A DNA stretch of 64,000 bases from Flavivirga spongiicola. Lineage in GTDB: Bacteria; Bacteroidota; Bacteroidia; Flavobacteriales; Flavobacteriaceae. This document shows, one piece after another, positions 1,362 to 33,682 of this stretch; positions within the stretch are counted from its first letter, which is position 1, and the number at the start of each line of letters is the position of its first letter. Under the pieces are notes generated by a model, which had not been told where the DNA came from, searched no databases, and saw nothing but the letters and a program-made list of their open reading frames with translations. Location of the stretch: positions 3,485,001 to 3,549,000 of the forward strand of contig NZ_JAUOEO010000001.1 of assembly GCF_030540825.1 (NCBI RefSeq). The letters run 5' to 3'. The position numbers and the translations under genes were made by a program.

Positions 1362-1448
1362 CTAACATTTCATCGCGAAAAAGTAACATTTAAACCTTTA
1401 TAAAGAAACATTTGTTAGCACGTTTTTTTAAGCCCGCTCTTAAATTTA
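1362..1448 (+). promoter_or_regulatory. Putative hybrid-regulator operator and promoter of susC
   Basis: Three tandem half-sites, CTAACATTT (1362), GTAACATTT (1383) and GAAACATTT (1405), are spaced 21 and 22 bp. They are followed by TAAATTTA at 1441-1448, a 7/8 match to the Bacteroidota -7 box TAnnTTTG. The proximal half-site starts 36 bp before the -7 box, and no -33 TTTG lies at the right distance, which suits an activator-dependent promoter. The same geometry recurs at 28024-28089 and 32383-32448. Assignment to the regulator encoded at 28190 is inference. Confidence 0.6.
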
Positions 1449-1475
1449 CAGAATAAACTTTTAAATATAAATTTT

Positions 1476-4400
1476 ATGCAAAAGAAGTACAAAAACTTGT
1501 TTAAACCCTTAAAAGAAAAGTGGACTTTAGCTTTTTTTATTTTGTTTCTGGGATTTTCATCCTATGCACAGGAAATAGGGCAAATAATAAAAGTAACTGG
1601 AACTGTAACGGACACTAGTGGAGCACCCCTTTTAGGTGTGAATGTTATTGAAGAAGGAAGTACATCTAATGGGGGTACAACAGATTTTGACGGGAATTAT
1701 AATATAAATGTCAAAAAGGGTAGTGTTTTAACGTTTAGTTATATTGGTTTTTTAACTCAAAAGGTGACTATTGACACTAAATCAGTCGTCAATATTGTTA
1801 TGTCTGAAGATTCACAGAAACTTGATGAGATTGTTGTTATAGGATATGGTACTCAAAAGCGAAGAGACCTTACAGGTTCTGTTAGCTCGGTTGATGTTGG
1901 AGATTTAAATGTGGCTCCTGTAGGATCGGTAGATGGTGCTTTAGCAGGTCGTATTTCTGGTGTGCAAGTTACTTCATCGCAAGGTAGACCAGGAGCGCCT
2001 ACAAGTATTAAAATTAGAGGAACAGGATCTTTAACCCAATCTAGTGATCCATTGTATGTTATAGATGGATTTCCAATTGAAGATTTCGATTTGTCATCTA
2101 TAGACCAATCAGATATTGGATCATTTCAAATATTAAAAGGACCTTCGGCTGTTGCAATTTATGGAGCTAGAGGGGGGAATGGTGTTGTATTAATTACTAC
2201 CAAAGATGGAACTTCTGGAAAAACAGAAGTTAAATATAATGGCTTTATTGGTTATGAGAAAATTACAACTAAGATAGATGTGCTCTCACCGTATGATTTT
2301 GTAGATTTAAGATATGAAGTAGATCCAGATGAAGCAGCGAATAGGTATGGGCCATTAAGCGCATATCAAAGACCAGATGGTTCGAGTATTGAAGGTATTG
2401 ATTGGCAAGAAGAAGCATATAGAGAAACAGAAGTACAAAGTCATAGCTTATCTGTAACTGGTGGTTCTAAAGAAACTAAATACAATTTGTCATTATCTAA
2501 ATATGATGGTGAGGGGCTTTTAGAGAATAGTGCATTTAACCGGACTTATGCGAAAGTAAAACTCAACCAAAAAATTTCTGATAAGTTAAAAGTGGGTGTA
2601 AACATATCATATACCACTTCTAGAATTTCGGGAACAAGTACATCATCAAATATTTTGAATCCTGATACAGATGGTGGAAGCACGAGTTCAGCCAGATTTA
2701 ATTTGTTAAAAGATATAGTGCAAGGTAGACCAACAGGCGGGCTATTTATATCTAATGAAGAATTATTAGGACTTCCTGAAGATCCAGATACAGAAGAAGG
2801 TGCGCCAATAACCAATCCTTTAGTAAATGCAAGGACGCAAATTAGAGAAGATGAAAGAAGTACATTGTTATTTAATGGATTTTTAGAATATGAAATTATT
2901 GATGATCTTAAACTAAAAGTTAGCGGAGGTATTCAAAAATTGAACCAAAGAAGAGAATCTTTTGATAAGGTAAATAGTGCTTTTGAAAGAAGGAATGGAT
3001 TTACTCGTGGAGAGATTAGAAACAGAGAAAGAATTAATAAATTGTTTACGTCTACATTGACCTTTAAAAAAACAATTTTAGACAATCATAATTTTACAAC
3101 CTTACTTGGTTTTGATTATCAAGATATAACCGACGAAACAAGTGCTGCATCAGGTAGTGTTTTTCCAGAACCAAATCTGGGTATAGACAACTTAGGAGCT
3201 GCTACCGAGGCTGGTTTTCCATTTTCAGTACGTGTGCCAACAAACAGGTTAATATCACTGTTTTATAGAATTAACTATGACTATGCCGGTAAATATTTTT
3301 TAACAGGTACGATAAGAAGAGATGGATCTTCTAGGTTTGGTGCCAATAATAAATTTGGAGTATTCCCTTCTGTTTCGGCAGCATGGCGATTTTCTGATGA
3401 ATCTTTTTTGAATGATTCTAATGTCATTTCTAATGGGAAACTAAGGTTCGAGTGGGGAGAAGTTGGAAATAATAGAATTCCAGCTTTCGTTTCTACCGCA
3501 CTCTTAAATACAACTACTTATGGATTAGAAAATGCTATAGCTGCAGGTGTCTTTCCGGCTAATTTAGCAAACCCGGATATAAAATGGGAAACTCAAAGAC
3601 AAATTAATTTAGGTTTAGATTTAGGATTGTTTAATGGTAATGTGTCAATTACTGCAGATGTTTACAGAAAAGAATCTGACGATTTACTACTTCAAGCACC
3701 AACGCCAGCGAATACAGGGTTTACTACTGTATTTAGAAACATTGGAAAGATTCGCAACGAGGGTATCGAGTTAGGCTTAAATACTGTAAATGTTGACAAA
3801 GGCGTTAAATGGACCACCGATTTTAATATAACGTTTCCAAGTAATAAAACATTATCCCTAGTTGAAGACGATATTTTATTTAGTAGTTCATCATGGTCAA
3901 CATCGACTGTAAGTCAGGATCCTTATGCAAATGATTTTATAACTCAAGTAGGTCAGCCTTTTGGATTAATGTATGGCTATATTGATGATGGTTTGTATAG
4001 AGCTGAAGATTTTGATACCAATGGAGATGCATTAATAAATGTTTCATTTGGAGATGAAGAACTCGGTTACAGAAAATATGTTGATCTAAATGGTGATAAT
4101 ATTATTGATGAAGACGATAAAGCAGTACTTGGTAATCCTAATCCTAAATTTTTTGGAGGACTTACAAATAATTTTTCTTATAAAGGATTTGATTTAAGTG
4201 TTTTTCTACAATGGTCTTATGGCAATGATATTTACAATGCCAATAGAGCATTATGGACATCAGGACTAAACTCTCATAGAAATTTTGTTCCTGAAATAAT
4301 AAACCGTTGGAGAGATACTAATACAGACGAACAAAATGCTGCTGCGACTTTCCGTAGTATCAATGATAATACAGAGGTGCTTACAAGTCAGTATATTGAA

Positions 4401-4646
4401 GATGGTTCATATATAAGACTAAAAACAGTTTCTCTAGGATACACTTTTCCTAAGCAGTTAGTTGAAAAATTGAAGATTCAGAAGCTTAGAATATATGCTA
4501 CGGGTCAAAATTTGGTGACCTGGACGGACTATACAGGATACGATCCGGAAGTGAGTACAAGAGGTAGTGGACTTACTTCAGGAGTTGATTTTGGAGCCTA
4601 CCCAAGAAGTAGAACTATTATTGGAGGCTTATCTGTTTCATTTTAA
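1476..4646 (+). CDS. SusC/RagA-type TonB-linked outer membrane transporter
   Basis: This 1056-residue protein imports oligosaccharides across the outer membrane using TonB energy. It has an N-terminal signal peptide ending near SSYAQ, then a carboxypeptidase-regulatory-like domain (about 38-110, VTGTVTDTSGAPLLGVNV). A DEIVVIGYGTQKRRDLTGSV segment opens the plug domain (about 118-245). The long beta-barrel ends in GGLSVSF with the terminal Phe expected for outer membrane insertion. Length is normal for the family. The SusD partner starts 33 bp downstream. The gene is preceded by the tandem half-site operator at 1362-1448. Confidence 0.95.
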   Translation: MQKKYKNLFKPLKEKWTLAFFILFLGFSSYAQEIGQIIKVTGTVTDTSGAPLLGVNVIEEGSTSNGGTTDFDGNYNINVKKGSVLTFSYIGFLTQKVTIDTKSVVNIVMSEDSQKLDEIVVIGYGTQKRRDLTGSVSSVDVGDLNVAPVGSVDGALAGRISGVQVTSSQGRPGAPTSIKIRGTGSLTQSSDPLYVIDGFPIEDFDLSSIDQSDIGSFQILKGPSAVAIYGARGGNGVVLITTKDGTSGKTEVKYNGFIGYEKITTKIDVLSPYDFVDLRYEVDPDEAANRYGPLSAYQRPDGSSIEGIDWQEEAYRETEVQSHSLSVTGGSKETKYNLSLSKYDGEGLLENSAFNRTYAKVKLNQKISDKLKVGVNISYTTSRISGTSTSSNILNPDTDGGSTSSARFNLLKDIVQGRPTGGLFISNEELLGLPEDPDTEEGAPITNPLVNARTQIREDERSTLLFNGFLEYEIIDDLKLKVSGGIQKLNQRRESFDKVNSAFERRNGFTRGEIRNRERINKLFTSTLTFKKTILDNHNFTTLLGFDYQDITDETSAASGSVFPEPNLGIDNLGAATEAGFPFSVRVPTNRLISLFYRINYDYAGKYFLTGTIRRDGSSRFGANNKFGVFPSVSAAWRFSDESFLNDSNVISNGKLRFEWGEVGNNRIPAFVSTALLNTTTYGLENAIAAGVFPANLANPDIKWETQRQINLGLDLGLFNGNVSITADVYRKESDDLLLQAPTPANTGFTTVFRNIGKIRNEGIELGLNTVNVDKGVKWTTDFNITFPSNKTLSLVEDDILFSSSSWSTSTVSQDPYANDFITQVGQPFGLMYGYIDDGLYRAEDFDTNGDALINVSFGDEELGYRKYVDLNGDNIIDEDDKAVLGNPNPKFFGGLTNNFSYKGFDLSVFLQWSYGNDIYNANRALWTSGLNSHRNFVPEIINRWRDTNTDEQNAAATFRSINDNTEVLTSQYIEDGSYIRLKTVSLGYTFPKQLVEKLKIQKLRIYATGQNLVTWTDYTGYDPEVSTRGSGLTSGVDFGAYPRSRTIIGGLSVSF

Positions 4647-4679
4647 TAAAACATCTGTTCACTTAAAAAAATATATAAT

Positions 4680-6398
4680 ATGAAAACCAAATTTAAAAAC
4701 ACATATTGGTTGACGCAAATAAATCAACAATACAAGTTTGTGCTTTGCGCTATAATACTAGGATTGCTATCAGTATCCTGTGAAAAAGAACTGGAAGAAG
4801 AAGTCTTTTCTGCCTTTACTGGTGATAATTTTTATACAGATGTTGCATCTGCAGAACTTGGTCTATTTGGAGTATATGATGTTCTAGGGACTGAAGATCT
4901 TTATGGACGTGGTTACCTCCTATATTATCATACGAGTACAGATCAAGAACGCTATTGGAGACAAGGTCGTGGTCAAGACGATGATTTATTATCAAATTAT
5001 CAGATCCAAGAATCTAATGCTTGGGTAGGGCGTGTATGGAGCAGGTTTTATGATGGTATTAATCGAGTAAACTTACTTATTGATAGAGTGATACCGCTGC
5101 GTGATCAAGCAGAAGAAAATCAGATTACTTCAGATTTAGATGCCTATAACACGGTATTAGGAGATGCCTATTTTTTAAGAGCATTCATGTATTTTCAACT
5201 CGTAAAAAATTGGGGAGATGTTCCATTGAGGCTAGAATCAGATATTACTTTAGCAGATTTGCAAATTGAGCGGTCTCCAAAAGTAAATGTTTACCAACAA
5301 ATAGAATCAGATATGTTAAAAGCTATTCCGCTTTTACCAAACGCTTCACAAGTAAGTACACCAGGTAGAATAAATAAGGGAGCAGCTCAGGCAATACTAG
5401 CAAGAATTTATCTTACATGGGCAGGACACCCTATACAAGATACATCTAAATATGAAAAAGCAGCAGAACAAGCGTGGGCAGTGATTAGTAGTGGTGAACA
5501 TGAACTAAACTCGGTCATTGAAAATCCTGCAGTTGGAGCTCCATTCGATCATCCGTTTCCAGAAGTATTCAAAAACTTATCAGAAAATGTATATGACCTT
5601 AAAGAGAGTATGTGGGAAATTCACTTTTCTTATATAGGTGATGATAGATTTGATGCCAGTACGGTAGGTGTTTGGCATGGAATAACCCAGCATACAAGAT
5701 CAACCTTTAAACGAGGAGCACCAAGAAGACACCCCTTACCTACGTTTTTGGCTTCTTTTGAAGCTGATGATACGGCAAGAAGGGATTGGTCTATTGCACA
5801 ATTTGAAATAAATAGTAGCGATAACTTTATAGCAGAAACGAATGAATTAACTTATGGTGTAGGAAAATTTAGAAGATATTTGATTCCTACTTTATCTCCC
5901 AATAATAATTATGATGTTATGAACTGGCCTATTGTTCGTTATGCAGATGTTCTCTTAATGTTGGCAGAAAGTGTTAATGAAACTTTAGAAAACGGAGGGG
6001 CGTTACCAGGAGGAATCTCTTTATCCTCAGCTTATGATGCTATAAATCAGGTAAGACGTAGAGCTAGAATGCTTGATCCGAATTCTCCAGATGTATCTGT
6101 GGATTTAACAGGAGGAGCAGGTGAGACTTTTAGACAGCAAATACGTAACGAAAGAAGCTGGGAGTTATGCTTTGAAAACCAAAGACGTCCGGACCTAGTT
6201 CGATGGGGAATATTAGAAGAAACTGTTAGACAGGCAGGTGTAGATTTAGCAGCTGATGGTGTTGATGTCGCTGCTGATTATTTTCCAGCAGCTGAGGTTC
6301 AGTCAAAACACGTATTATTTCCTATTCCTTTTGCGGCTGAAATTAGTCAAAACCCAGCTATTCTTAATACAGATCCTACTAATAACGGGTATAGGTAG
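4680..6398 (+). CDS. SusD/RagB-type surface glycan-binding lipoprotein
   Basis: This 572-residue partner of the upstream SusC forms the lid of the transporter and binds glycan at the cell surface. A signal peptide with lipobox LSVSC gives a lipidated Cys34, followed by acidic residues (EKELEEE) typical of surface export in this phylum. Family signatures include the TPR-rich N-terminal half (GDAYFLRAFMYFQLVKNWGD, AAQAILARIYLTW) and the C-terminal signature RNERSWELCFENQRRPDLVRWG. The gene is complete and follows susC in the same operon. Confidence 0.95.
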   Translation: MKTKFKNTYWLTQINQQYKFVLCAIILGLLSVSCEKELEEEVFSAFTGDNFYTDVASAELGLFGVYDVLGTEDLYGRGYLLYYHTSTDQERYWRQGRGQDDDLLSNYQIQESNAWVGRVWSRFYDGINRVNLLIDRVIPLRDQAEENQITSDLDAYNTVLGDAYFLRAFMYFQLVKNWGDVPLRLESDITLADLQIERSPKVNVYQQIESDMLKAIPLLPNASQVSTPGRINKGAAQAILARIYLTWAGHPIQDTSKYEKAAEQAWAVISSGEHELNSVIENPAVGAPFDHPFPEVFKNLSENVYDLKESMWEIHFSYIGDDRFDASTVGVWHGITQHTRSTFKRGAPRRHPLPTFLASFEADDTARRDWSIAQFEINSSDNFIAETNELTYGVGKFRRYLIPTLSPNNNYDVMNWPIVRYADVLLMLAESVNETLENGGALPGGISLSSAYDAINQVRRRARMLDPNSPDVSVDLTGGAGETFRQQIRNERSWELCFENQRRPDLVRWGILEETVRQAGVDLAADGVDVAADYFPAAEVQSKHVLFPIPFAAEISQNPAILNTDPTNNGYR

Positions 6399-6430
6399 AC
6401 AAAATTATTATTATTTTAAATCGAAATAAA

Positions 6431-7873
6431 ATGAAAAATAAATATTTTAAGTTTAATAAAAAGAGGGCTAATTTTAGTGTTTTTTTAGGTATTCTGATAA
6501 CATTTTTTTTAATTTCATGTGAAGAAGATGAAACTAATTTGGGGATAGATCATGAGCCAAGTGCAGCAGTAGGATTTCTCAATACAGACACAGAAGCTAC
6601 AGAAGGTGGAGCGGCAGGTGTGTTAGAAATAATTGCTACCAAAAATGTTTTTAATGATGTATCTTTTGATATTGTCGTTTTGGAAGGAGATGGGAGTGAA
6701 GTTACTATAACAGATTCTGACGGTAATTCTGGAACTAGTTTTAAGATCTCTAAAGGTACTAAGCAAACTAATTTAAGCTTTGTAATTAGTAATAATTCTG
6801 ACTTCACAGGAGATAGAGAGGTTAAATATGGTTTAACTAATTTAGTAGGAGATGGTGTATTTCTGGCTGAAGAAGAAATAGGGTCGGGAAGTGATAAAGT
6901 ATATGCTGAGTTTGCACTTTCTGTACTTGATGATGAACAAGCACCCCCAACAGTTAGCTTTGATGTAGCTTCAGCTTCAATAAGTGAAAATGCAAATACA
7001 ATGCATACTATTACACTTCAATTTGCTGAGCCAACCCCTTATGCAGGAACCTTTGATTTAGCTTTATCAGGAACGGCAGTAGCAGGAGATGATTTTACCT
7101 CTGATGCTGTAGCTGGAATTATTCCAATAAGTTTTGGCGTAGGCGTAGAAGAAATTATAGTAAATATTATGCCTGTAGATGATGCGGTAGCAGAAACTGA
7201 TAAAACTGTAATTTTAACCATGACTAATCTTGGTACAGATATTTTATCTGGAGCAATTACCGAATATACTCTGACTATTACTGAAGATGATTTACCAACA
7301 GTAGAGTTGATTGCTGAAGCTGATGGTATTATTAGAGCAGGAAGTGGTAGCGGAGATATAATAGGAGGAGGAATTGGTAGTTCTACCCAGATGAGCTCAG
7401 GAAGCGATCCATTAGATAATGGCGATAAAAATAATCGTCATAGTTTATCTCGTTGGGATATAAGTGGTGTGGATCTTTCAAAAGTAATTTCTGCTAAGCT
7501 TGTTTTTACAGCTACTGACGATTGGACAGATGCAGAAACAAATGCTGGTGGTACAACAACGCAAAATATACATCACATCACAGGAGATGATAGTTGGGAT
7601 GAAACTGTACTTACATGGGATAATGCTCCGGTTTTTGATGCTACACCATTCGTTACTGGTACTTTCGCTGCTGTTGGTGCTGCACCTGCACCACCAAGTG
7701 CTACTATACATGAATATGATGTAACTGATACATTGAAAAATGATAGCGATGGTAAATTTTCCATTCGTATGACGGTTTCTGCTGATACGTCAGGAAAAAG
7801 AATTAGGTATAGTTCTAAAGATACAGGGACTCCAGAAAACCTTCCTAAGTTGATAATAGTGTCAACGTTATAA
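6431..7873 (+). CDS. Calx-beta / DNRLRE-type surface lipoprotein, probable glycan-binding protein
   Basis: The 480-residue lipoprotein (lipobox FLISC, Cys30) sits directly after SusD, where surface glycan-binding proteins (SusE/F-like) are usually encoded. Two Calx-beta-like segments occupy about 45-290 (SISENANTMHTITLQF, GTAVAGDDFTS, NIMPVDDAVAETDKTVILTM). The C-terminal 190 residues resemble the DNRLRE/CBM96-type module: NRHSLSRWDISGV, the DDSWDETVLTWDNAP signature and a final YSSKDTGTPENLPKLII strand. No catalytic residues are evident. Glycan binding is inferred from position and the C-terminal module. Confidence 0.75.
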   Translation: MKNKYFKFNKKRANFSVFLGILITFFLISCEEDETNLGIDHEPSAAVGFLNTDTEATEGGAAGVLEIIATKNVFNDVSFDIVVLEGDGSEVTITDSDGNSGTSFKISKGTKQTNLSFVISNNSDFTGDREVKYGLTNLVGDGVFLAEEEIGSGSDKVYAEFALSVLDDEQAPPTVSFDVASASISENANTMHTITLQFAEPTPYAGTFDLALSGTAVAGDDFTSDAVAGIIPISFGVGVEEIIVNIMPVDDAVAETDKTVILTMTNLGTDILSGAITEYTLTITEDDLPTVELIAEADGIIRAGSGSGDIIGGGIGSSTQMSSGSDPLDNGDKNNRHSLSRWDISGVDLSKVISAKLVFTATDDWTDAETNAGGTTTQNIHHITGDDSWDETVLTWDNAPVFDATPFVTGTFAAVGAAPAPPSATIHEYDVTDTLKNDSDGKFSIRMTVSADTSGKRIRYSSKDTGTPENLPKLIIVSTL

Positions 7874-7887
7874 AAATATGATCCACG

Positions 7888-7914
7888 GCCTCAAATAACG
7901 AGAATTTTTGAGGC
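7888..7914 (+). terminator. Intergenic hairpin between binding-protein gene and GH88
   Basis: GCCTCAAA (7888-7895) pairs with TTTGAGGC (7907-7914) around an 11-nt loop, and a T-rich run follows. It lies 14 bp after the lipoprotein stop and 32 bp before the GH88 start. It could attenuate transcription from the susCD part into the enzyme part, or protect the upstream mRNA 3' end. Confidence 0.55.
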
Positions 7915-7945
7915 TGTTTGGATTTTTAAATAATTCATTAATTTT

Positions 7946-9190
7946 ATGATGAAAAACAACAACCGTGCTAATTTAGTATGTATTTTATTATGCACCATCT
8001 TCCTATGGTCTTGCAAGAAAACCTCATCAGGAGCTAAAGAAGCATCACTAGAAAAGCCTGATATAACAAGAAGTTTGTCAAAAACAGACGTTGACAATCT
8101 TTTTAAAAAAACAGTTTTACACCTAAATAACGCTTGGGATTCTATAGAGCAAACCAAAAGATTGCCTCGATCCATCGAAAGAGGTTTTAGACATATTGGA
8201 GACTGGACGAGCGGATTTTATCCTGGTAATCTTTGGATAGCCTATGAGAAAACTGGAAATCAAAATCTGTTAGAAAAGGCAAAATTTGCAACAGAACTAC
8301 TTGATGAAGAAAAGTACAATATTCGTGACCATGATATCGGTTTCAGGATTTATTGTAGTTATGGAAGAGGCTATGAGTTGACAAAAAAGCCTGAATACAA
8401 AGACGTTATCGTTCAGGCAGCCAAATCGGCTATACAGCGATACAATCCAAAAGTAAAGGCAATCATGTCTTGGGAACCCAGACCAGATAGAGATTGGCAG
8501 TATCCGGTAATTATTGACAATATGATGAATTTAGAGCTGCTATTTGCTGCTACAAAATTTACTGGAGATTCTAAGTTTTATGACATTGCTGTAAATCATG
8601 CCATTAAAACGATGGAGCATCAGTATAGAGAAGATTTTAGTTGCTCGCATGTCGTTGATTTTGATGCGCAAACTGGTGAATTTCGAAAAAGAGACTGGAA
8701 TAATGGGAACAACGATCCGAGTACTGCAGCATGGAGTAGAGGACAAAGTTGGGGATTATATGGGTTTACTATGGTTTATAGAGAAACAAAGGATAAACAA
8801 TTTTTAGAGCAAGCCGAAAAAATTGCAGGGTTTATTTTGAACCATCCTAACATGCCTAAAGATATGATACCCTATTGGGATTATAATGCACCTGAAATAC
8901 CTACTCTTAGAGATGCATCTGCAGCTGCTATTTTAGCTTCTGGATTGATAGAGTTATCACAATTATCAGAAGATGGGGAAAAGTATTTTGAAGCAGGAGA
9001 AAAAATCCTTAATAGCCTTGCTTCGCCGGAATATTTTGCAGAACCTGGTACAAATGGAGACTTTGTTCTTAAACATGCTACAGGTAATTATATAAGAAAA
9101 TCGGAAAGAGATGGAACATTAATTTATGCTGATTACTATTTTCTTGAGGGACTCATGAGATACACCAAAATTAAGAATCAGTTAATGTAA
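7946..9190 (+). CDS. GH88 unsaturated uronyl hydrolase, lipoprotein
   Basis: The 414-residue enzyme (lipobox LWSC, Cys23) hydrates the 4,5-unsaturated uronic acid left at the non-reducing end by polysaccharide lyases, releasing it as a keto sugar. The sequence follows GH88: GDWTSGFYPGNLWIAYE, DHDIGFRIYCSYGRGYEL, IIDNMMNLELLF, TAAWSRGQSWGLYGF and RDASAAAILASGLIEL. Asp130 in HDIGF and Asp191 in IDNMMN are 61 residues apart, the same spacing as Asp88 and Asp149 of the Bacillus GL1 enzyme. Its product would be 5-keto-4-deoxyuronate, which fits the uronate catabolism signs at 32 kb. Confidence 0.93.
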   Translation: MMKNNNRANLVCILLCTIFLWSCKKTSSGAKEASLEKPDITRSLSKTDVDNLFKKTVLHLNNAWDSIEQTKRLPRSIERGFRHIGDWTSGFYPGNLWIAYEKTGNQNLLEKAKFATELLDEEKYNIRDHDIGFRIYCSYGRGYELTKKPEYKDVIVQAAKSAIQRYNPKVKAIMSWEPRPDRDWQYPVIIDNMMNLELLFAATKFTGDSKFYDIAVNHAIKTMEHQYREDFSCSHVVDFDAQTGEFRKRDWNNGNNDPSTAAWSRGQSWGLYGFTMVYRETKDKQFLEQAEKIAGFILNHPNMPKDMIPYWDYNAPEIPTLRDASAAAILASGLIELSQLSEDGEKYFEAGEKILNSLASPEYFAEPGTNGDFVLKHATGNYIRKSERDGTLIYADYYFLEGLMRYTKIKNQLM

Positions 9191-9235
9191 TTACTGGTGA
9201 ATGCAGATAACCAATTATTAAATCAAAGTAGACAT

Positions 9236-9351
9236 ATGAGAAAATCAATAGTTTTACTTCCATGCTTGCTTGCATGTACTTATATATGTGTTCAAAGTAT
9301 TTTAAAACAATCGAAACCGAATATCATTATACTATTCACAAAAGTGGAAAT
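9236..9351 (+). repeat. Duplicated 5' end of the following sulfatase gene
   Basis: These 116 bp are a diverged tandem copy of the first 116 bp of the sulfatase gene at 9352. From ATG at 9236 it encodes a 39-residue peptide beginning MRKSIVLLPCLLACTY and continuing SKPNIIILFT, nearly the same as the real N-terminus. The unit is not a multiple of 3, so its frame ends at TGA 9353-9355, overlapping the real ATG (9352-9354) as ATGA. It could be a dead relic or a translated leader peptide coupled to the sulfatase. Confidence 0.85.
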
Positions 9352-10746
9352 ATGAGAAAATCAATAGTTTTACTTTCATGCTTGCTGGCATGTACTTATT
9401 TATATGCCCAAAATACGTTAAAACAATCGAAACCCAATATCATTATATTATTCACAGATGATCAAGGGTATGGAGATGTAGGAAGTTATGGAGCGAAAGA
9501 CATTAAAACACCTAATCTAGACAAGATGGCTGCTGAAGGTGTAAGATTTACTAACTTTTATGTAGCAGCTTCATCCTGTACACCATCTAGAGCAGCATTG
9601 CTTACAGGGTGTTATCCTCAACGAGTTGGATTACCGGCTGTTGTCGACGACTTGTCTAATAAAGGCCTTAGTTCTGCAGAGTTTACTATAGCCGATTATC
9701 TTAAACAGAATGGCTATGCAACAGGTATGTTTGGCAAATGGCACTTAGGACATCATCCAGAATTTATGCCAACAAGACACGGTTTTACCGAGTTTTATGG
9801 TATCCCTTATTCTATGGATATGTGGCCATTTCATCCCAAACCAAGCCATCAATATCCCCAAGTTCCTGTGTATTCTAATGAAACTGTGGTGGAATATAAT
9901 CCAAATGTCAATCAAATGACAACAGTTTTTACAGAAAAATCAGTTGATTTTATAAAGAGAAATAGTAACCAGCCCTTTATGTTATACCTTCCCTACTCTC
10001 AACCACATGTACCATTAGGGGTTTCTGATAAATTTAAAGGAAAATCTGATGGAGGACTTTACGGGGATGTTATTATGGAAATAGATTGGTCTGTTGGAGA
10101 AATTATTAAAGCGGTTGATGCTGCTGGAATTTCTGAAAACACGCTTATTTTATTTACGTCAGACAATGGACCATGGCTTACCTACGGAAATCATGCTGGA
10201 TCTTCAGGAGGATTACGAGAAGGTAAAGGGACTGTATTTGGTGGCGGACAAAAAGTACCATTTTTGGCAAGAATGCCAGGAAGCATTCCTGCAGGTAGAG
10301 TGGAAAATCAAATGGCTACGGCTATGGATATTTTGCCAACAGTATTAGGAATAACCAATACTTCAATGCCAAGAATGAATCCTATGGATGGACAGGATAT
10401 ATGGCCATTATTAACAAAAAAAGATAAGATAACAAGCAAGCCTTTTTTCTTTGTAAAAGGTAATGAAGTACAGGCAGTAAGAGATGGAAAGTGGAAATTG
10501 CACCTACCACACAAATATCGTGTTACACTAGTTAAAGGCAATAATGGGCTGGTAGGCAAACAGGATAATTTTGGAGGGACTATAGAATTGTCACTTTATA
10601 ACATAGAAAAAGATCCTGCTGAATCTAGAAATCTGGCAGGAAAAAATCCTAAAATAGTAAAGCGATTAAGAGGTTTAATAGAGGCATTTAAAGAAGATCT
10701 AGAACAGAATAGCCGACCAGCGGGTATTGTGAAAAAGAAACTTTAA
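9352..10746 (+). CDS. Sulfatase, S1 family (formylglycine type), ARSA-like
   Basis: The 464-residue secreted hydrolase removes sulfate esters. The formylglycine motif is CTPSR with Cys76; metal-binding DDQGYGD follows the signal peptide MRKSIVLLSCLLACTYLYAQ. Other conserved parts are GKWHLG and TSDNGPW, then HAGSSGGLREGKGTVFGGG as in arylsulfatase-A-like enzymes. I chose ATG 9352 because a full signal peptide begins there; an upstream in-frame ATG at 9262 would read through the duplicated 5' end in the wrong frame. Sulfated substrate and position are unknown. Maturation needs a formylglycine-generating enzyme, which is not in the window. Confidence 0.92.
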   Translation: MRKSIVLLSCLLACTYLYAQNTLKQSKPNIIILFTDDQGYGDVGSYGAKDIKTPNLDKMAAEGVRFTNFYVAASSCTPSRAALLTGCYPQRVGLPAVVDDLSNKGLSSAEFTIADYLKQNGYATGMFGKWHLGHHPEFMPTRHGFTEFYGIPYSMDMWPFHPKPSHQYPQVPVYSNETVVEYNPNVNQMTTVFTEKSVDFIKRNSNQPFMLYLPYSQPHVPLGVSDKFKGKSDGGLYGDVIMEIDWSVGEIIKAVDAAGISENTLILFTSDNGPWLTYGNHAGSSGGLREGKGTVFGGGQKVPFLARMPGSIPAGRVENQMATAMDILPTVLGITNTSMPRMNPMDGQDIWPLLTKKDKITSKPFFFVKGNEVQAVRDGKWKLHLPHKYRVTLVKGNNGLVGKQDNFGGTIELSLYNIEKDPAESRNLAGKNPKIVKRLRGLIEAFKEDLEQNSRPAGIVKKKL

Positions 10747-10786
10747 ATAAATTAAATAGTAGTTATTACTATGATAATAAGTTTTT

Positions 10787-12564: not shown

Positions 12565-12595
12565 ATTGTCAATGAATTAGAGAGTAAAAGAAAAC

Positions 12596-24374: not shown

Positions 24375-24406
24375 TACTTTCTTTTTATTTATATAGTTGT
24401 TTATTT

Positions 24407-25699
24407 TTAATTTAAAGATTTGAATTCAATAATGTCATCACTTGTACTTTTCATTGTGTCTTTTTTTGTTTTTAATGTTTTGTTTTTAACCAAAGGGTTT
24501 GCCCAAATACCAATACTTAATATATAAGCTAGCATGATATAGTTAAAGAACATGCCGGCTTTGAGACCAAAAAGGTCACTTAATCCGCCAACAATAAATG
24601 GAGCAATGGCTCCACCAACAATGCCTGTACAAAGAATACCTGCTATCGAACCATGATGCGCTTTTACCGAATTTAGAGCTAAAGAAAAGATTATAGACCA
24701 CATCACGGAAGCAAAGAAACCTACTGCTGGAAATGCAAGCAACGCCATGTTTTTAGATCCAAACAATGCTAAAGAGAGGGAAATAAATGCTAGGCTAGAA
24801 AATATAAGCAACACTTTTTTACTATCTATAAACTTAAGTAATACCAATCCTAAAAGGCACCCCAGTGTTAAAAGCCCCCAGAAATGACCAACAGAAGCTG
24901 CTCCTTCCGTATTTGGATCTACACCATGATATGTTTCTAAAAATTGTGATATCCAAAAAGAGACACCTTGTTCGAACCCAACGTAGCAAAAAATTCCAAT
25001 GAAAAATGCTAAAACAGTTTTGTTTTTGAATAATGATTTAAGTAATGACAAGTCTGCAGGCTTTTCATCTTCTTTTAATTCTACTTTTGGAAATTTAAAT
25101 AAAGTGATAACAATGACCATCAAAAGGGCAATAGCTCCAAACACCCAATAAATAGAAACCCAAGACATATCGGAAGGAATCAAAGAGCTAATAAAACTTA
25201 TAAACTTATCTGATGCATTATTCTTTCCAATGTTTTGTACTAAATAGGTAAATAGAAAGGGACCAACGACACCTGCAGCTCCAAAAAATAATTGCCCCAT
25301 AACAGAGTAAAAAGCAAAATGTTCTTCACCACCAGCTTCTCTCAATAATGGGTTAATAGCAACTTGTAACATGGCCATACCAGTACCAATTAGAAATAAA
25401 GAAAAAAGAAAGACCGGGAAAGTTGGGAAAACAGCAAATGAAAAAGCACCAATTGTAGCTAAGGAGAATGCCAATAGCATCATTTTTTTTTCCTTATACT
25501 TTTCTAAAAGTATACCGGAGGGTATGGACATGATGCCATATGCAGAAAAAAATGCTAGGGTCATAAAGCCTAGAGAAGAAAATTCTAAATTAAAACTTTC
25601 TTTAATTCCAGGATTTAGTGCTCCAAGAATATTTGTTAATAAAGATATTACGAAGAATACTAGTAATACTAACCCAACTATTAAATGTTTGCTATTCAC
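24407..25699 (-). CDS. MFS sugar transporter
   Basis: The 430-residue inner membrane protein has about 12 hydrophobic segments and the FucP/glucose-galactose-type layout. Examples are GLVLLVFFVISLLTNILG at the start, FFSAYGIMSIPSGILLEKY with the loop following helix 2, and GGAIAPFIVGGLSDLFG in the C-terminal half. It is 11 bp downstream of the ROK kinase, so the likely role is import of a monosaccharide or small product that the kinase phosphorylates. Specificity cannot be read from the sequence. Confidence 0.85.
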   Translation of the reverse strand: MNSKHLIVGLVLLVFFVISLLTNILGALNPGIKESFNLEFSSLGFMTLAFFSAYGIMSIPSGILLEKYKEKKMMLLAFSLATIGAFSFAVFPTFPVFLFSLFLIGTGMAMLQVAINPLLREAGGEEHFAFYSVMGQLFFGAAGVVGPFLFTYLVQNIGKNNASDKFISFISSLIPSDMSWVSIYWVFGAIALLMVIVITLFKFPKVELKEDEKPADLSLLKSLFKNKTVLAFFIGIFCYVGFEQGVSFWISQFLETYHGVDPNTEGAASVGHFWGLLTLGCLLGLVLLKFIDSKKVLLIFSSLAFISLSLALFGSKNMALLAFPAVGFFASVMWSIIFSLALNSVKAHHGSIAGILCTGIVGGAIAPFIVGGLSDLFGLKAGMFFNYIMLAYILSIGIWANPLVKNKTLKTKKDTMKSTSDDIIEFKSLN

Positions 25700-25710
25700 G
25701 TTAATTATAT

Positions 25711-26637
25711 TTATAAATTATTTTTTCTATTAAGGGCATAAATTCCTGCGCCTATAAAACCTGCTTTATTGCCTAATTTTGCGGATAAAATCTGTACATT
25801 TTCGAAGCTCTCTTTAATGGCATATTGTTGTGCTGATTCTTTTATCTTTTCTATAAAAAAACCTCCTGCCATAGATATTCCACCACCAATAATGATTTTT
25901 TTTGGATTGAAAACATTGATATAGCCAGATATGCCTAGTCCAACTAGTTTTGAGGTATCATTCACAACTTTTTGTGCTAGTGCTTCATTTTCAAAATATT
26001 TTTTTACAATGTATTCACCATTCATTTTTATATTTGAAGGTTTGTTTTTGCAAGAATCTTTATACTTTTTTACCATAGCTGCGGTTGATGCCACTTCTTC
26101 CCAATACAATACGTCATTATTAATAATCATAGGAAACAAGCCATACTCTCCTCCAAATCCGTAATGTCCTTGAAATAGCTTTCCATCAACAAATAAAGCA
26201 CCTCCAATACCAGTTCCTAATGTTAGAAATAGTGCTGTTCCAATAGCATCGCTATTTGAAAAATAAAGCTCACCCATGGCCATCATATCAGCATCATTAG
26301 CAACGTAAGCCGAAAGCTTTGTGTTGCTTTTAATCAATTGCCCCATAGGAACATTAATCCAGTCTATAATGTTTTCGGCACCACCTACAATGACATCTTC
26401 ATTATCGACTAGCCCTGGAGTTCCTAAACCAATAGTTGCAACATGGATATTTTTTTGACTGGCAGCACTCATGGCTTCATCACATACATCAAGAATATTT
26501 TGAATAACTTCGTTTTGAGAGGTATTTGCTTTTGTTGGCCTTTTTGATTCCCATAAAATTTTTCCTGTAGAACTAACAAGTCCTGATTTTATTGAGGTGC
26601 CTCCTAAATCAATTCCAATGCCTATATTTTCATTCAT
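25711..26637 (-). CDS. ROK-family sugar kinase without the zinc motif
   Basis: The 308-residue cytoplasmic kinase has the phosphate-binding motif GIDLGGTSIKSGLV at residues 8-21. It also has AYVANDADMMAMGE with the likely catalytic Asp, LGTGIGGALFVDGK, and the C-terminal KKIIIGGGISMAGGFF. The usual ROK zinc motif is absent: where ExGH is expected it has GGEYGLFPM, and no CxCGxxGCxE follows. Many Bacteroidota kinases of this type lack it. It probably phosphorylates a hexose or amino sugar brought in by the adjacent MFS protein. The gap to the upstream sulfatase gene is 3 bp. Confidence 0.88.
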   Translation of the reverse strand: MNENIGIGIDLGGTSIKSGLVSSTGKILWESKRPTKANTSQNEVIQNILDVCDEAMSAASQKNIHVATIGLGTPGLVDNEDVIVGGAENIIDWINVPMGQLIKSNTKLSAYVANDADMMAMGELYFSNSDAIGTALFLTLGTGIGGALFVDGKLFQGHYGFGGEYGLFPMIINNDVLYWEEVASTAAMVKKYKDSCKNKPSNIKMNGEYIVKKYFENEALAQKVVNDTSKLVGLGISGYINVFNPKKIIIGGGISMAGGFFIEKIKESAQQYAIKESFENVQILSAKLGNKAGFIGAGIYALNRKNNL

Positions 26638-26640
26638 ATT

Positions 26641-27993
26641 TTAATAGATTAGTAGTCTTTTAAACGCTGCTTTGTCATTGTTTTCAACACACCAATTATA
26701 GAGTTGTTTTCGCATCGTTTTTATTTGATTTTTATATTTAGAGCTTGCTGCTAGATTTGATATTTCAAAAGGATCGTTTTCAAGATCAAAAAGTTGTTCT
26801 CTATTTTTGCCTTGTTCATAAATAACATATTTATATTTTTTGGTTACCAAAGCTCTTCCCTTTGTTTGAATAGAGTTTCCGCCATCAAACATAGTTTCAA
26901 TAACAACATATTCTCTTTCTCTTTTTTGTTCTTTACCTTGTAAAACGGGTAATATGGAATGGCCTTTTAAGTTACTAGGAACTTTTACCGAACCCATTTC
27001 TAGTATAGTTGGCATTAAATCAAGGCCATTAGAAACCAAAATGTTAGATTTTTTTGACTTGGTGTTTTTTTGTGGATACTTTACGATTAATGGCACATTA
27101 ACAGACTCTTCAAAAAGGACTGTTTTTTGATTCCAATGATGAGCAGACATTCCATCTCCATGATCTGAAGTGAAAATGACTATGGTATTTTTATCCAAAC
27201 CATTTTTTTCTAGACCGTCCAATATTTTTCCTATTTCCAGATCAACTTTTTCGATTAATTTATAGTAGGCGGATAAATATTGTCTCCAATCGTTATCATT
27301 ATAAGAAACAGTTGGATATACTTTAGAATTTAATTTTTGTTCTATACGTAAAACCTCAGCATCATAAGCGCCAATGGCATGATTAATAGGTAACATAGGA
27401 GCTTCTTCTGGAGATTTAACTTCTATCGCTCCATTCGGCAGTCTCTGACCTCTGGCATATTCGCAAATATCATGTGGGTTCACATACGATGCAACCATAA
27501 AAAAGGGACTCTTATCTTTTTTACCATCTAAATAGGCTACACAACTTTCAGCTAAACCATGATCTCTAGAGTCTGCGATTTTTTTAAATCCAACATTATC
27601 GGGGATATTAATCTCTGGAATATGCCATTTCCCTCCATAAACACAATCATATCCACTGTCAGACATCAATTGTCCTAATCCCTCCTTAAAGCTTCCTTTT
27701 GGGATATTAATTTTGAAGTTGGAGTAAACCCCTAATTCGTGAGGCATTTTACCTAAAAACATACTTGCTCGCGAAGGTGAGCATATAGGATACGAAACAT
27801 ATGTTTTTTTGAATAACGTACCTTGCTCGGCAATTCTATCAATATTAGGAGTTTTTAAATCTGTATTTCCCATACAACTTAAAGCTGAAGAAGTGTGCTG
27901 GTCAGTTATAATTAGTAAAATATTTGGACGCTCTACTTGTGATAAAGCTGAGGTGCAAATAAGGAAAAAGACTATCTTATAAAATATTTTCAT
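26641..27993 (-). CDS. Sulfatase, S1 family
   Basis: The start is set at ATG 27993, giving 450 residues with signal peptide MKIFYKIVFFLICTSALSQ; a longer frame to 28062 adds 23 residues before it that do not look like a signal peptide and overlap the -7 box. The formylglycine motif is CSPSR at Cys71; metal ligands lie in TDQHTSSALSCMG and TSDHGDGMSAHHWNQK. GKWHIPE replaces the common GKWHLG. It is first in the sulfatase-ROK-MFS-sulfatase operon. The promoter is the operator at 28024-28089. Subfamily and substrate are unknown. Confidence 0.9.
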   Translation of the reverse strand: MKIFYKIVFFLICTSALSQVERPNILLIITDQHTSSALSCMGNTDLKTPNIDRIAEQGTLFKKTYVSYPICSPSRASMFLGKMPHELGVYSNFKINIPKGSFKEGLGQLMSDSGYDCVYGGKWHIPEINIPDNVGFKKIADSRDHGLAESCVAYLDGKKDKSPFFMVASYVNPHDICEYARGQRLPNGAIEVKSPEEAPMLPINHAIGAYDAEVLRIEQKLNSKVYPTVSYNDNDWRQYLSAYYKLIEKVDLEIGKILDGLEKNGLDKNTIVIFTSDHGDGMSAHHWNQKTVLFEESVNVPLIVKYPQKNTKSKKSNILVSNGLDLMPTILEMGSVKVPSNLKGHSILPVLQGKEQKREREYVVIETMFDGGNSIQTKGRALVTKKYKYVIYEQGKNREQLFDLENDPFEISNLAASSKYKNQIKTMRKQLYNWCVENNDKAAFKRLLIY

Positions 27994-28023: not shown

Positions 28024-28089
28024 CAAATATATGAAGGTGGCGTCATAGCAAGAGATTAGCATGTTACTTTTTTAAAGGTTAGATGATAC
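28024..28089 (-). promoter_or_regulatory. Putative hybrid-regulator operator and promoter of the sulfatase-ROK-MFS operon
   Basis: Read on the - strand, GTATCAT (28089-28083) and GTAACAT (28067-28061) are 22 bp apart with a TAACCTTTA-type spacer. TATATTTG, a perfect TAnnTTTG, lies at 28031-28024. The proximal half-site starts 36 bp from the -7 box, exactly as upstream of susC. The distance from the -7 box to the ATG is about 30 bp. The site lies between the operon and the regulator gene and might also affect the regulator's own expression. Confidence 0.65.
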
Positions 28090-28189: not shown

Positions 28190-31100
28190 ATGAAAACCCT
28201 AAGCATGAAACATATTTATATATTAAACCATAAGCGTTTTTTCCTTTTACTATGGTTTTGCTGTATAGGCGTTTTTTCTCAAAACCAAGATATATCTTTT
28301 ACTCGCCTCTCTGTTAAAGATGGTTTATCACAAAACGGTGTTATGTCTATTTTTAAAGACAGCAAAGGCTATGTTTGGTTAGGAACAAGAGATGGTCTTA
28401 ATAGATATGATGGTTATAATTTCAAAGTTTTTAGGCATAACCCACATGATTTTAACTCTTTAAGTAATAATTATATTAATACAATTGTCGAAGATAAAGA
28501 TGGTGTTTTATGGGTTGGAACTCAAAATGGTCTAAATGCCTTTAATCAAAAAGACCAAACTTTTAAGTGTTACAAAAATATACCAACTAATGATAAATCT
28601 ATATCTGATAATAAAATCCTCTCTATTTTAATTAGCGACAATGGGGATCTTTGGGTTGGAACCGAAAATGGACTTAATGTAAAAAAGAGGCACGAAAATA
28701 CTTTTACAACATTTTACAATCTTGAAGAAGATCCAAATTCTATAAGTGGTAATGAAGTATTTGCTTTATTCGAGGACTCTAAAAATAATATTTGGGTAGG
28801 TACTAGATACAATGGATTGAATAAGTTTTTGGGTGAAAGTCAAAAGTTTAGAAGGTTTCTTAATGAACCTTCAAATCCTATGAGTATTAGAGATGATCAA
28901 ATCACGTCAATTGCAGAAAGTGAAGATGGAAAATTATGGATAGGTACAAAGGATAATGGCATTAGTATTTTAGATAAGAATGATACTTTTACGCACATTG
29001 TAGCAGATGTTGGGGCTTCTAATACGTTATCACATAATAGAATTCGATCTTTGGTTTTTGATGAAGATTCGAATGTGTGGATTGCAACGTATAATGGGCT
29101 TAGCCATTATAATACCAGTACAGGCAACTTTACAGTATATAAAAATGTTACTGATGACTCAAATAGTATTAGTCATAACTCAATACGCTCTTTGTTTTTA
29201 GACAACTCGGGGCTTTTATGGGCAGGAACATATTTTGGAGGCGTCAATATTATTAATCTAACTTCAAATGAATTTATACATTTTCAGCATAGTAATACTA
29301 ATAAAAATAGTTTAAGCTATAATGTTGTTGGTCCCATGGTAGAAGATCAAAATAAAGATATTTGGATAGGGACTGAAGGAGGTGGGCTTAACTTTTTTGA
29401 TCATTCAAAGCAAACTGTTTCAAGAATTACTTTTTTTAATAATAAACCAATTATAGACAAAACAATAAAATCCCTTTTAGTAGATGGAAAAGGGAATTTG
29501 TGGATTGGAACATTTCAAGAAGGATTATTAGTAGTAAATTTAGATAATAATAAACTTGAGAAATTTACTTATGACATTGGTGCTCAAAGCGGTTTAAAAA
29601 GTAATTCCATTTTGTCATTACTAGAAGACCATATAGGTAAAATTTGGATAGGTACAGATAATGGGCTGTGTGTGTATAACCCCAAGACAAAAGAAATAGG
29701 TAATATTCAACTCCCAAAAATAAAGAGTGCAGCAAAAAATATTAGCATTACTTGTATTTGTGAAGATTCTAATAATATTGTTTGGATAGGAACTAAAACT
29801 AATGGGTTGCTTGCTTTTGATGGTGATACTATAAAACAATATACACATACAATAAATAATGACAATAGTATTAGTCATAATTATATTAATGAAATTTTTG
29901 AAGACTCTAAAAACCGTATCTGGATAGGAACTTATGGTGCTGGGCTCGATTTAATCAATCCAGAAGAAGAAACTTTTAAACACTATACTTTAAAAGATGG
30001 TTTAGTAAACGATATTATATACAGTATTGAAGAAGACAGTGAAAAAAAACTATGGGTTGCTACTCCTACAGGAATATCAAAAATGAACCCAGAAGAGAAT
30101 AGTTTTAAAAACTATACATATTCAAACGGTATCCCTATAGATGAGCTTAACAATAATTCGTCATTACACCATTCCAGTGGATTACTTTTTTTTGGAGGAT
30201 TTAACGGTTTTATGGGGTTTATACCAGATCATATTAAAGACAACCCAAATGTTCCGGACATTACTTTACTACAATTAAAATTATTTAATAAAACGGTTAA
30301 ACCAAACGATAAAAGTGGTCTTTTAAAAACTCCTCTTGATGAAACTAAATCAATAACTTTTTCTCATGAGCAAAATATATTTTCAATAGACTATATTGCT
30401 TTAAATTATTTTCAGCCAGGGCAAAACCAATATGCCTATAAATTGGAAGGATTAGAGTCTGATTGGAATTATGTTGGAAATAGAACATCAGCTACCTATA
30501 CGAATTTAAGCCCAGGAGACTATACTTTTAAAGTAAAAGCTGCAAATATTGATGGCATTTGGAATGATAAAGTTATCAGCTTAAATATTATCAAGCGCCC
30601 TCCTTTTTGGAAAACAATTTGGGCTTACCTCATTTATTTAACTTTTGCTTTTATTTTATTTTTTATAATACGAAAATACTTTTTAATAAAACTTGGTCTA
30701 GAAAATAATTTAAAGCTAGAAAAGCTAGAAAAAAATCAAATAGAAAAATTAACAAAACTTAAGCTAAAGTTTTTTACAAATATTTCACATGAGTTCAGAA
30801 CCCCTCTTACACTTATTCATGCTCCTTTACAAGAACTTATTAGTACGCTAAAAGAATCTAAATACCATAATCAGCTTTTACTAATCAAAAAAAATGCTGA
30901 TTTAATGTTGCGACTTATAAACCAATTAATGGATTTTAGAAGTATTGAAAGTGGTCAAGTTTCCTTAAAAGTGTCAAAAAAACCATTCGTGCCTTTTGTT
31001 AAAGAGGTGGTGTCGTCATTTAAAGAATATGCTAAGTCTAGTGATATTCGTTTTTCTTTTACTTCTAGTGTTTCGAATGACAATTTTTTATTTGATAAAA

Positions 31101-32320
31101 ATAAAATTGAAAAAGTATTATATAATTTACTTTCTAATGCATTTAAAAATACTCCGGAAAAAGGGAAAGTATCTGTGAAAATATCAAAAAACATTTCAAC
31201 GTCCGACATAAACTTTATTGAAGTAAGTATTTATAACTCTGGTGTGGGTATAGAAAAAAAGGATATAGAACGCATATTTGATAGGTTTTACCAAACAACT
31301 CATTCGCACGAAAATGATAAATTAGGATCAGGTGTTGGACTTACTATGGCAAAGAATTTAATTGAATTGCATAAAGGATATATTCATGTAAACAGCAAAG
31401 TAAACCAATATGCGGAGTTCACCATCGGAATCCCTATGGAAGATGTCTATTCAAAAGAAGAGAAGGAAAGTGCTAGTTTAAGTATGGAAAGTGAAAAAAG
31501 TAGCTCGTCTAGTTCTTCTGTAAATGTTGAAGATACCCCTCTTGATAAGGAATTTACTTTGCTAATTGTAGAAGATAGTCATGATTTAAGAAACTTTTTG
31601 GCACAAAGCTTTTCAGCTGATTATAATATTAAAGTTGCTGAAAATGGAGAGTTAGGTTTACAGATAGCTAGTGAGGATCATATAGACATCATTATTTCTG
31701 ATATCATGATGCCCAAACTCTCTGGTATTGAAATGTGTAAAAAGATTAAATCAAATCCTAGAACAAAGCATATTCCAGTTATTTTGTTAACCGCCAGAAC
31801 GGCGTCAACATTGGAATTAGAAAGTTATGACACTGGTGCTGATGATTTTATTTCGAAACCTTTTAACATTGACGTTTTAAAATCTAAAGTTAGAAATAAT
31901 ATTAAATCGAAAATTGATATTGATAGTCATGCCAGACAGGAAATTTTTCTGGAAGATTCTGAAATAAATAATTCTCCAGCAAATGAAAAGTTCTTAAAAA
32001 AACTTTCTGATTATATAAGAGATCATATCAGTGATCCAAATCTTAATGTTAATTCTGTTAGTAAAGAATTGGGGCTAAGTAGAGTGCATTTATATAGGAA
32101 AACCAAAGAGATAACGGGGAAAAGTCCTGTAACATTTATTAGAGATTTTAGATTATCCGTAGCAACTAAGTTAATAGAAAAGGAAAACTATAATATTAAT
32201 GAGATTTGTTATAAAATCGGATTTCAAGATGCAAGTTATTTTAGGAAATGTTTTAAGAAAAAGTATAAAGTTTCACCTTCGGCATATTTAGAAAAAATAA
32301 AGACAGAAGAGATTAATTAA
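28190..32320 (+). CDS. Hybrid two-component system regulator (HTCS): propeller sensor, kinase, receiver, AraC domain
   Basis: In this 1376-residue membrane protein sensor, kinase and DNA-binding output are one chain. After a signal peptide (to about residue 30) come repeated propeller blades such as GYVWLGTRDGLNRYDGYNF (about 35-700). A Y_Y_Y domain ends in YTNLSPGDYTFKVKAANIDG, and a membrane helix follows at about 805-830. The HisKA domain has SHEFRTPLTLIH (His867). The ATPase has NLLSNAFKNTPEKG and GSGVGLTMAKNLIELHKG. The receiver has SDIMMPK with Asp1171. The C-terminal AraC-type HTH is ELGLSRVHLYRKTKEITGKS. A periplasmic oligosaccharide should activate it. It sits in the middle of the locus between two copies of the candidate operator. 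Confidence 0.95.
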   Translation: MKTLSMKHIYILNHKRFFLLLWFCCIGVFSQNQDISFTRLSVKDGLSQNGVMSIFKDSKGYVWLGTRDGLNRYDGYNFKVFRHNPHDFNSLSNNYINTIVEDKDGVLWVGTQNGLNAFNQKDQTFKCYKNIPTNDKSISDNKILSILISDNGDLWVGTENGLNVKKRHENTFTTFYNLEEDPNSISGNEVFALFEDSKNNIWVGTRYNGLNKFLGESQKFRRFLNEPSNPMSIRDDQITSIAESEDGKLWIGTKDNGISILDKNDTFTHIVADVGASNTLSHNRIRSLVFDEDSNVWIATYNGLSHYNTSTGNFTVYKNVTDDSNSISHNSIRSLFLDNSGLLWAGTYFGGVNIINLTSNEFIHFQHSNTNKNSLSYNVVGPMVEDQNKDIWIGTEGGGLNFFDHSKQTVSRITFFNNKPIIDKTIKSLLVDGKGNLWIGTFQEGLLVVNLDNNKLEKFTYDIGAQSGLKSNSILSLLEDHIGKIWIGTDNGLCVYNPKTKEIGNIQLPKIKSAAKNISITCICEDSNNIVWIGTKTNGLLAFDGDTIKQYTHTINNDNSISHNYINEIFEDSKNRIWIGTYGAGLDLINPEEETFKHYTLKDGLVNDIIYSIEEDSEKKLWVATPTGISKMNPEENSFKNYTYSNGIPIDELNNNSSLHHSSGLLFFGGFNGFMGFIPDHIKDNPNVPDITLLQLKLFNKTVKPNDKSGLLKTPLDETKSITFSHEQNIFSIDYIALNYFQPGQNQYAYKLEGLESDWNYVGNRTSATYTNLSPGDYTFKVKAANIDGIWNDKVISLNIIKRPPFWKTIWAYLIYLTFAFILFFIIRKYFLIKLGLENNLKLEKLEKNQIEKLTKLKLKFFTNISHEFRTPLTLIHAPLQELISTLKESKYHNQLLLIKKNADLMLRLINQLMDFRSIESGQVSLKVSKKPFVPFVKEVVSSFKEYAKSSDIRFSFTSSVSNDNFLFDKNKIEKVLYNLLSNAFKNTPEKGKVSVKISKNISTSDINFIEVSIYNSGVGIEKKDIERIFDRFYQTTHSHENDKLGSGVGLTMAKNLIELHKGYIHVNSKVNQYAEFTIGIPMEDVYSKEEKESASLSMESEKSSSSSSSVNVEDTPLDKEFTLLIVEDSHDLRNFLAQSFSADYNIKVAENGELGLQIASEDHIDIIISDIMMPKLSGIEMCKKIKSNPRTKHIPVILLTARTASTLELESYDTGADDFISKPFNIDVLKSKVRNNIKSKIDIDSHARQEIFLEDSEINNSPANEKFLKKLSDYIRDHISDPNLNVNSVSKELGLSRVHLYRKTKEITGKSPVTFIRDFRLSVATKLIEKENYNINEICYKIGFQDASYFRKCFKKKYKVSPSAYLEKIKTEEIN

Positions 32321-32382
32321 TAGCACTTTTCCTGTAAAATAGAATACACTACATGTTATGCACTCAATTGTTTATCTAGAAA

Positions 32383-32448
32383 GTAACATTTAGACCTATA
32401 AAATGAAACATATACAAAGTGGTTTAATGTGGCTTCTAGCTAACTTTG
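32383..32448 (+). promoter_or_regulatory. Putative hybrid-regulator operator and promoter of the eda-remnant/TRAP operon
   Basis: GTAACATTT (32383) and GAAACATAT (32405) are spaced 22 bp. The -7 box TAACTTTG (32441-32448) is a perfect TAnnTTTG, starting 36 bp after the start of the proximal half-site. The site matches the susC copy closely: GTAACATTTAGACCTATAAA here, against GTAACATTTAAACCTTTATA there. The next intact gene starts 252 bp downstream; a decayed aldolase remnant lies between. Confidence 0.65.
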
Positions 32449-33680: not shown

Positions 33681-33682
33681 AT

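Follow-up and report, generated by a model that had tools for sequence, protein, structure and literature searches.

Three operons within a 64,000-nucleotide stretch of the Flavivirga spongiicola genome (bases 3485001-3549000 of contig 1, 5.9-Mb genome; this whole stretch is called the window) are preceded by the same short direct repeat, and a hybrid two-component system (HTCS) regulator is encoded beside two of these repeats at 28190..32320 on the plus strand. The locus thus raises the question of which protein reads the repeat, how far the regulon extends, and how such a protein would act at the promoters. As judged from the sequence, the best explanation as a whole is, with high probability, that the repeat is the operator of this HTCS, which would be bound in tandem and would activate transcription beside RNA polymerase.

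In all three window sites, GWAACAT-type heptamers are separated by N15, which gives 22 bp from start to start. Before susC the repeat reads GTAACAT-N15-GAAACAT (1383..1411, plus strand), and the same form stands before the TRAP operon (32383..32411, plus strand), both sites being found by direct reading, by a genome pattern search and by a matrix; before the sulfatase operon, GTATCAT-N15-GTAACAT occupies 28061..28089 on the minus strand, with half-sites starting at 28089 and 28067. The -7 boxes are TAAATTTA at 1441..1448 (plus), TATATTTG at 28024..28031 (minus, start 28031) and TAACTTTG at 32441..32448 (plus), each 36 bp from the start of the proximal half-site. The initial annotation of this DNA had described these three repeats with 22 bp between half-site starts and a -7 box exactly 36 bp past the proximal half-site, and both statements were confirmed by reading the sequence directly; the ACCT spacer that it had also described is present, with a displacement of 1 bp at the site on the minus strand.

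A genome-wide search confines the exact pattern GWAACAT-N15-GWAACAT to one 53-kb stretch: there are five matches, all from 3464165 to 3517411 and two of them inside the window (1383 and 32383), against none for the reversed-pattern control. With at most one mismatch the cluster consists of seven sites, of which four lie upstream of the window (genome positions 3464165, 3472266, 3473277 and 3483470), the one-mismatch members being 3483470 and the minus-strand site at 28061-28089. The three sites first reported are real, but the full set comprises seven good sites, one of which has its box at 37 instead of 36 bp; likewise, the operator joins the operons as had been claimed, but the regulon is larger than stated, with seven promoters that also cover heparinase-like and sulfatase genes in a block further upstream. 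TAnnTT follows the start of the proximal half-site in all seven (36 bp in six, 37 bp in one), with a background of 1.1% per position, and in the 164 kb around the window a spacing of 22 is seen in 7 repeats at up to one mismatch, whereas every other spacing from 14 to 33 has at most 2.

That the repeats arose by chance, or that the promoters were copied by duplication, has to be weighed against these numbers, as one-mismatch pairs are common: the genome has 23 matches (22 of the 23 listed, the seven cluster sites among them) versus 15 in the control, and the paired half-sites are therefore unspecific outside the cluster. A composite pattern, designed after the exact-pattern matches had been seen, has five matches at up to three mismatches, all in the cluster, with none in the control. 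A 29-bp matrix made with all seven sites scores them at 27.6-35.8, whereas the best other position reaches 15.0, and in a leave-one-out version no left-out site is outscored by any non-site position in the 164 kb. A longer matrix of 68 bp was built from 20 sites of three genomes, our own and two of the same family (G387 and G169). Eighteen of these were taken at up to one mismatch regardless of the box; the other two (G387 43508, G169 58443) have two mismatches and were admitted because the box is present, while a palindromic place of G387 (32376-32406, up to one mismatch, no box) and G387 55550 (two mismatches, box) were left out. On this matrix our seven sites score 31.7-51.4 (in-sample), compared with 11.0 for the best of 2.1 million null positions, and only two null scores exceed 9, both from loci fetched for matching the half-site pattern. 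Maxima from 20 shuffles of the region itself range from 3.9 to 15.8, and because one of them reached 15.8, two weak sites are kept as tentative: genome position 3525580 (score 14.0), which is GTATCAA-N15-GTAACTG with TAATTTTG at 36 bp on the minus strand of the window (40552..40580) before the sulfatase gene 38747-40465, and genome position 3482227 (13.8). Promoter copying is also contradicted by the sequence between half-site and box, which is not conserved among the 20 sites. Chance is refuted for the seven strong sites and holds for the two weak ones only, and as an account of the whole it is hardly credible. Across the 20 sites, the heptamers and the box carry high information, positions 9-12 of the distal half-site (ACCT) a moderate amount and the -33 region little; no conserved -33 element is seen in this alignment.

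The candidate reader carries, according to Pfam, a Reg_prop/Y_Y_Y sensor, HisKA, HATPase_c, Response_reg and an AraC-type HTH_18 (residues 1291-1368), so that all the parts of an HTCS, from the periplasmic sensor through kinase and receiver to the DNA-binding domain of AraC type, are united in one polypeptide. The best PDB match of its sensor is 4a2l, which we take to be BT4663. Nine further relatives of full or nearly full length are encoded in the same genome, the best with 41% identity, and the parts expected to read DNA set the regulator apart from them. Its first recognition helix, SRVHLYRK, is found in 23 of the 35 best homologues and as a variant in 7, the other 5 being unmatched by the search expression (two are truncated proteins), whereas the own paralogues have SRSVLYRK, SHSVIYKK or SHSNVYKK; the second helix is GFQDASYFRKCFK in the regulator itself and GFNDLKHFRKSFK, GYSDRKYFSKLFK or GYTDRRHFSQEFK in these paralogues. 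Identity of the DNA-binding domain is 66, 60 and 50% in three orthologues versus 41, 36 and 34% in three own paralogues.

Orthologues of the regulator are rare. At E<=1e-290 a match is found in 4 of 397 genomes of the family, namely in our own, G387 (54%), G216 (46%) and G169 (43%); the best match in 11 other genomes of the genus has 39%, G387 is the only one of four genomes in its genus to have one, and our own is the only one among 395 genomes drawn from the phylum. Homologues from named sources include those of Mariniflexile ostreae (59%), Flavobacterium sp. JAS (50%) and Chryseolinea lacunae (47%). The operator follows this distribution in part. At least four exact matches occur in only two of the 397 family genomes, our own (five) and G169 (four), both of which carry the HTCS orthologue, and in G169 all four are on the contig of the HTCS; the three matches of G291 are spread over three contigs, and the remaining genomes have one, two or none. 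In G387 the contig with the HTCS (at 28-32 kb) also bears 8 of the 16 matches at up to one mismatch, between 15 and 44 kb. Within the fetched stretches, TAnnTT stands at 36 or 37 bp in 6 of 8 repeats at up to one mismatch in G387 (one palindromic place being counted on both strands), and the box is present in 3 of 5 such repeats in G169. The genes behind the sites are of the same kinds: in G387 the repeat precedes a NagB-like fusion (21350), GH88 (25147), a heparinase II-like gene (25333), a ROK-MFS-sulfatase set (32548) and GH88 with a sulfatase (43508), and the 20-site matrix found, outside its training set, a susC promoter at 6048 with a score of 28.0 and the box TACCTTTG at 36; in G169 it precedes GH88 (38960), SusC (57563), a gene without match followed by a NagB-like fusion (58443), a heparinase-like gene (71893) and a ROK-MFS-sulfatase set (89272). 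A repeat placed before operons of a polysaccharide utilization locus and conserved together with the orthologue is therefore seen in G387 and G169, and not convincingly in G216.

Several observations weigh against the HTCS as the reader of this operator. Family-wide, the exact pattern is not enriched (73 matches in 59 of 397 genomes, versus about 100 in the control by hand count). G216, in spite of its 46% orthologue, has the box in neither of its two repeats, no exact-pattern match, and a top matrix score of at most 7.6 in 100 kb. The composite pattern matched none of the sites of G169, where the ROK-MFS-sulfatase site moreover has CACCTTTG as its box rather than TAnnTT and an exact repeat at 76266 has no gene facing it. 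No repeat faces the HTCS gene in our own genome, and the palindromic repeat just upstream of the HTCS start in G387 (L115:12376-12406, G387:C29), which perhaps serves autoregulation, has no box at 36/37. As for matches elsewhere, diverged repeats noticed by eye in G216 before PL8, MFS and SusC were left uncounted; the first two score 2.9 and 3.8, and the third is outside the top scores. G090, G095 and G178 have one composite-pattern match each, a frequency like that of the control (3 genomes versus 2 control matches, 299 genomes). None of 36 named loci with HTCS relatives contains the operator at up to one mismatch and spacing 22.

Another regulator might bind the repeat instead, for example a LacI-type protein encoded just before 3464165, whose gene ends 76 bp before that site. 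LacI operators are palindromes, but our seven sites are all direct repeats. Furthermore, the LacI protein is the best match of no open reading frame of at least 130 aa in the 80-100 kb fetched from G387, G169 and G216, whereas the HTCS is present in each, which makes this alternative very unlikely. Because the operator is confined to the cluster, clusters at the orthologues in two other genera and goes along with shared recognition helices, its reading by the adjacent HTCS, as had been claimed from the window, is supported by the sequence comparisons.

For the mode of action, a model can be proposed in which the periplasmic propeller sensor would bind a ligand, probably an unsaturated glycosaminoglycan disaccharide, upon which the dimeric HTCS would phosphorylate its receiver domains and free two AraC-type DNA-binding domains. 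One domain would occupy each GWAACAT half-site, giving a tandem pair on the same face of the DNA with a distance of two turns (22 bp), and the proximal domain, held in fixed phase just upstream of RNA polymerase, would compensate for the missing -33 contact, so that transcription would require the bound activator. In Flavobacterium psychrophilum the -7 box is at -12 to -5 (PMC9723704), and on this scale the proximal heptamer would span about -48 to -42 and the distal heptamer -70 to -64. AraC-family proteins suggest by analogy that both helix-turn-helix motifs of one DNA-binding domain may contact the distal half-site, while the proximal half-site would be touched mainly by the first motif, with the second facing the -33 region. 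An activator beside RNA polymerase is plausible, as it fits the phase of 36/37 bp and promoters in which no -33 element is conserved; binding, phosphorylation, activation and ligand are all inferred. For B. thetaiotaomicron, gel shifts have been reported with output fragments of the HTCSs BT4124, BT4663 and BT0366, and promoters that carry predicted sites are bound there (PMC11253607, PMC5061871).

With the same operator and the same HTCS, the protein could also repress, or bind unphosphorylated and merely modulate a self-sufficient promoter. The receiver contact motif of our regulator is KHIP, versus S/CHIP in most HTCSs, and the contact has been reported to hold the DNA-binding domain inactive; the first position is conserved in 84%, so KHIP is not disqualifying for an HTCS (PMC11253607). 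BT4124 and BT4663 bind DNA without phosphorylation after changes in the contact residues, and the deviating BT2391 has been reported as a repressor (PMC11253607). The sites, however, lie upstream of the -7 box in nearly fixed phase and without a conserved -33 element, and SHIP is kept in many close homologues, so that KHIP is no trait of the clade; a clade-wide loss of S/CHIP was dropped as an idea for the same reason. Repression or mere modulation is accordingly considered unlikely, and activation by the phosphorylated HTCS is preferred.

The genes behind the operators, with operon extents inferred from gene order throughout, have the content of a glycosaminoglycan utilization locus, as the predicted enzymes include glycosaminoglycan lyases, GH88 and sulfatases together with SusCD. 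The susC set (1476..16088, plus) comprises SusC, SusD, a CBM96 protein, GH88, two sulfatases and a PL8 lyase, with gaps of 228 bp before 10975 and 269 bp before 12834. The minus-strand set behind 28061..28089 (22848..27993) encodes a sulfatase, a ROK kinase, an MFS transporter and a sulfatase, and may extend to CBM9, GH and PL8 genes, to 16447, beyond a 318-bp gap after 22848. The listed sulfatase start at 28062 is an ATG within the operator and upstream of the predicted promoter; the gene likely starts with the ATG at 27993 instead. The third set (32700..37460, plus), which begins 259 bp from its box, encodes the TRAP transporter proteins DctP, DctQ and DctM and a NagB/PIG-L fusion, and a metallophosphoesterase gene (37707-38702) may follow. 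The long DctP leader (32550-32680) contains broken reading frames (VGMGSKLVPKDII..., GVQSALEIIKSVRK) that resemble the end of a KDPG aldolase; such a remnant was rejected, a Pfam scan of 38 residues giving nothing.

Upstream of the window, 3464165 is followed by a gene of unclear family, two sulfatases and a PL12-like lyase, and 3472266 by a gene with a Por-type secretion tail. Behind 3473277, one operator precedes a heparin lyase I-like gene and, 38 bp further, a PL8 chondroitinase AC-like gene (L011:13394-17487). The window begins with the 3' part of a heparinase II/III-like gene (best PDB match 6lja) whose listed start is 111 bp downstream of the site at 3483470. A heparinase II gene passes the cutoff of the HepB equivalog (1231 vs 600 bits), its operator at 3482227 being tentative only, while the heparinase III-like and chondroitinase AC-like matches are below the NCBIfam cutoffs. 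The first gene behind 3464165 (L011:4431-6344) encodes a 637-aa protein with a twin-arginine-like start, which matches GH47 only weakly and nothing in the PDB, and is a candidate new enzyme. A second carbohydrate set in the window (43356-52903) encodes a sugar transporter, an endo/exonuclease/phosphatase family protein, GH97, a sulfatase, an esterase and GH2; no operator match above background by matrix score was found in it, and Rfam at gathering thresholds gave no match in the window.

The gene sets behind the operator are probably used for digesting heparin-like and chondroitin-like sugars. Given heparinase-like and PL8 lyases behind one operator, with shared SusCD, an amino-sugar kinase, the NagB-like fusion and the TRAP transporter, there is a reasonable case that the one HTCS serves as a pan-glycosaminoglycan switch. 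If so, its sensor would recognise a feature common to both polymer classes, for example an unsaturated uronate end, and the predicted coupling of heparin-type and chondroitin-type degradation thus bears on the ligand that the sensor recognises. A sharp motif, a nearly fixed phase and a conserved DNA-reading surface make the regulon readable from sequence, and a half-site start 36 bp from the -7 box suggests a rule for how membrane-bound HTCSs may activate Bacteroidota promoters without a conserved -33 element. Such a rule is not claimed for all HTCSs: when a repeat of 21-22 bp with a box 36 bp away was looked for in 31 of the 36 named loci, the spacing signal was unspecific or too small. In the unmasked loci spacing 21 is the commonest (63 of 493 matches), and three of the five fullest cells belong to it (box at 34, 35 and 36), but 18 and 27 are likewise prominent spacings, and therefore coding repeats contribute; masked to intergenic sequence, 22 matches remain, 8 of them at spacing 21, and the test is too small. 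Three own paralogue loci gave three matches, none within the expected range.

The type of element is already known; new are the motif, its almost constant phase to the promoter in three genera, and an unusually broad regulon in which heparinase-like lyases are joined with PL8 chondroitinase-like ones. No study of HTCS operators in flavobacteria was found in the open-licence literature, as judged from listings. At araBAD, AraC activates from tandem half-sites that are spaced by about two helical turns, with the proximal half-site beside the -35 region. The sites described here share with it the tandem half-sites for AraC domains about two turns apart, but it is the Bacteroidota -7 box that is conserved in the core promoter, and the regulator is a hybrid two-component protein bound to the membrane. 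For 16 Bacteroides HTCSs, direct repeats averaging 21 bp have been predicted (Ravcheev et al. 2013, PMC3878776), and like in those operators, a direct repeat of about 21 bp would place two monomers on one face of the DNA. All seven of our sites have 22 bp and the GWAACAT heptamer, and the nearly fixed distance to the -7 box is a feature of the sites described here, none being given in the passages of PMC3878776 consulted. In B. thetaiotaomicron, heparin is served by the HTCS BT4663 and chondroitin/hyaluronan by the HTCS BT3334, in separate loci and with unsaturated disaccharides as ligands (PMC9067506, PMC6994673, PMC3878776). Like in these systems, the HTCS described here adjoins SusCD, GH88, sulfatases and glycosaminoglycan lyases, but where B. 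thetaiotaomicron has two HTCSs for two polymer classes, a single operator here stands before both heparinase-like and PL8 lyases.
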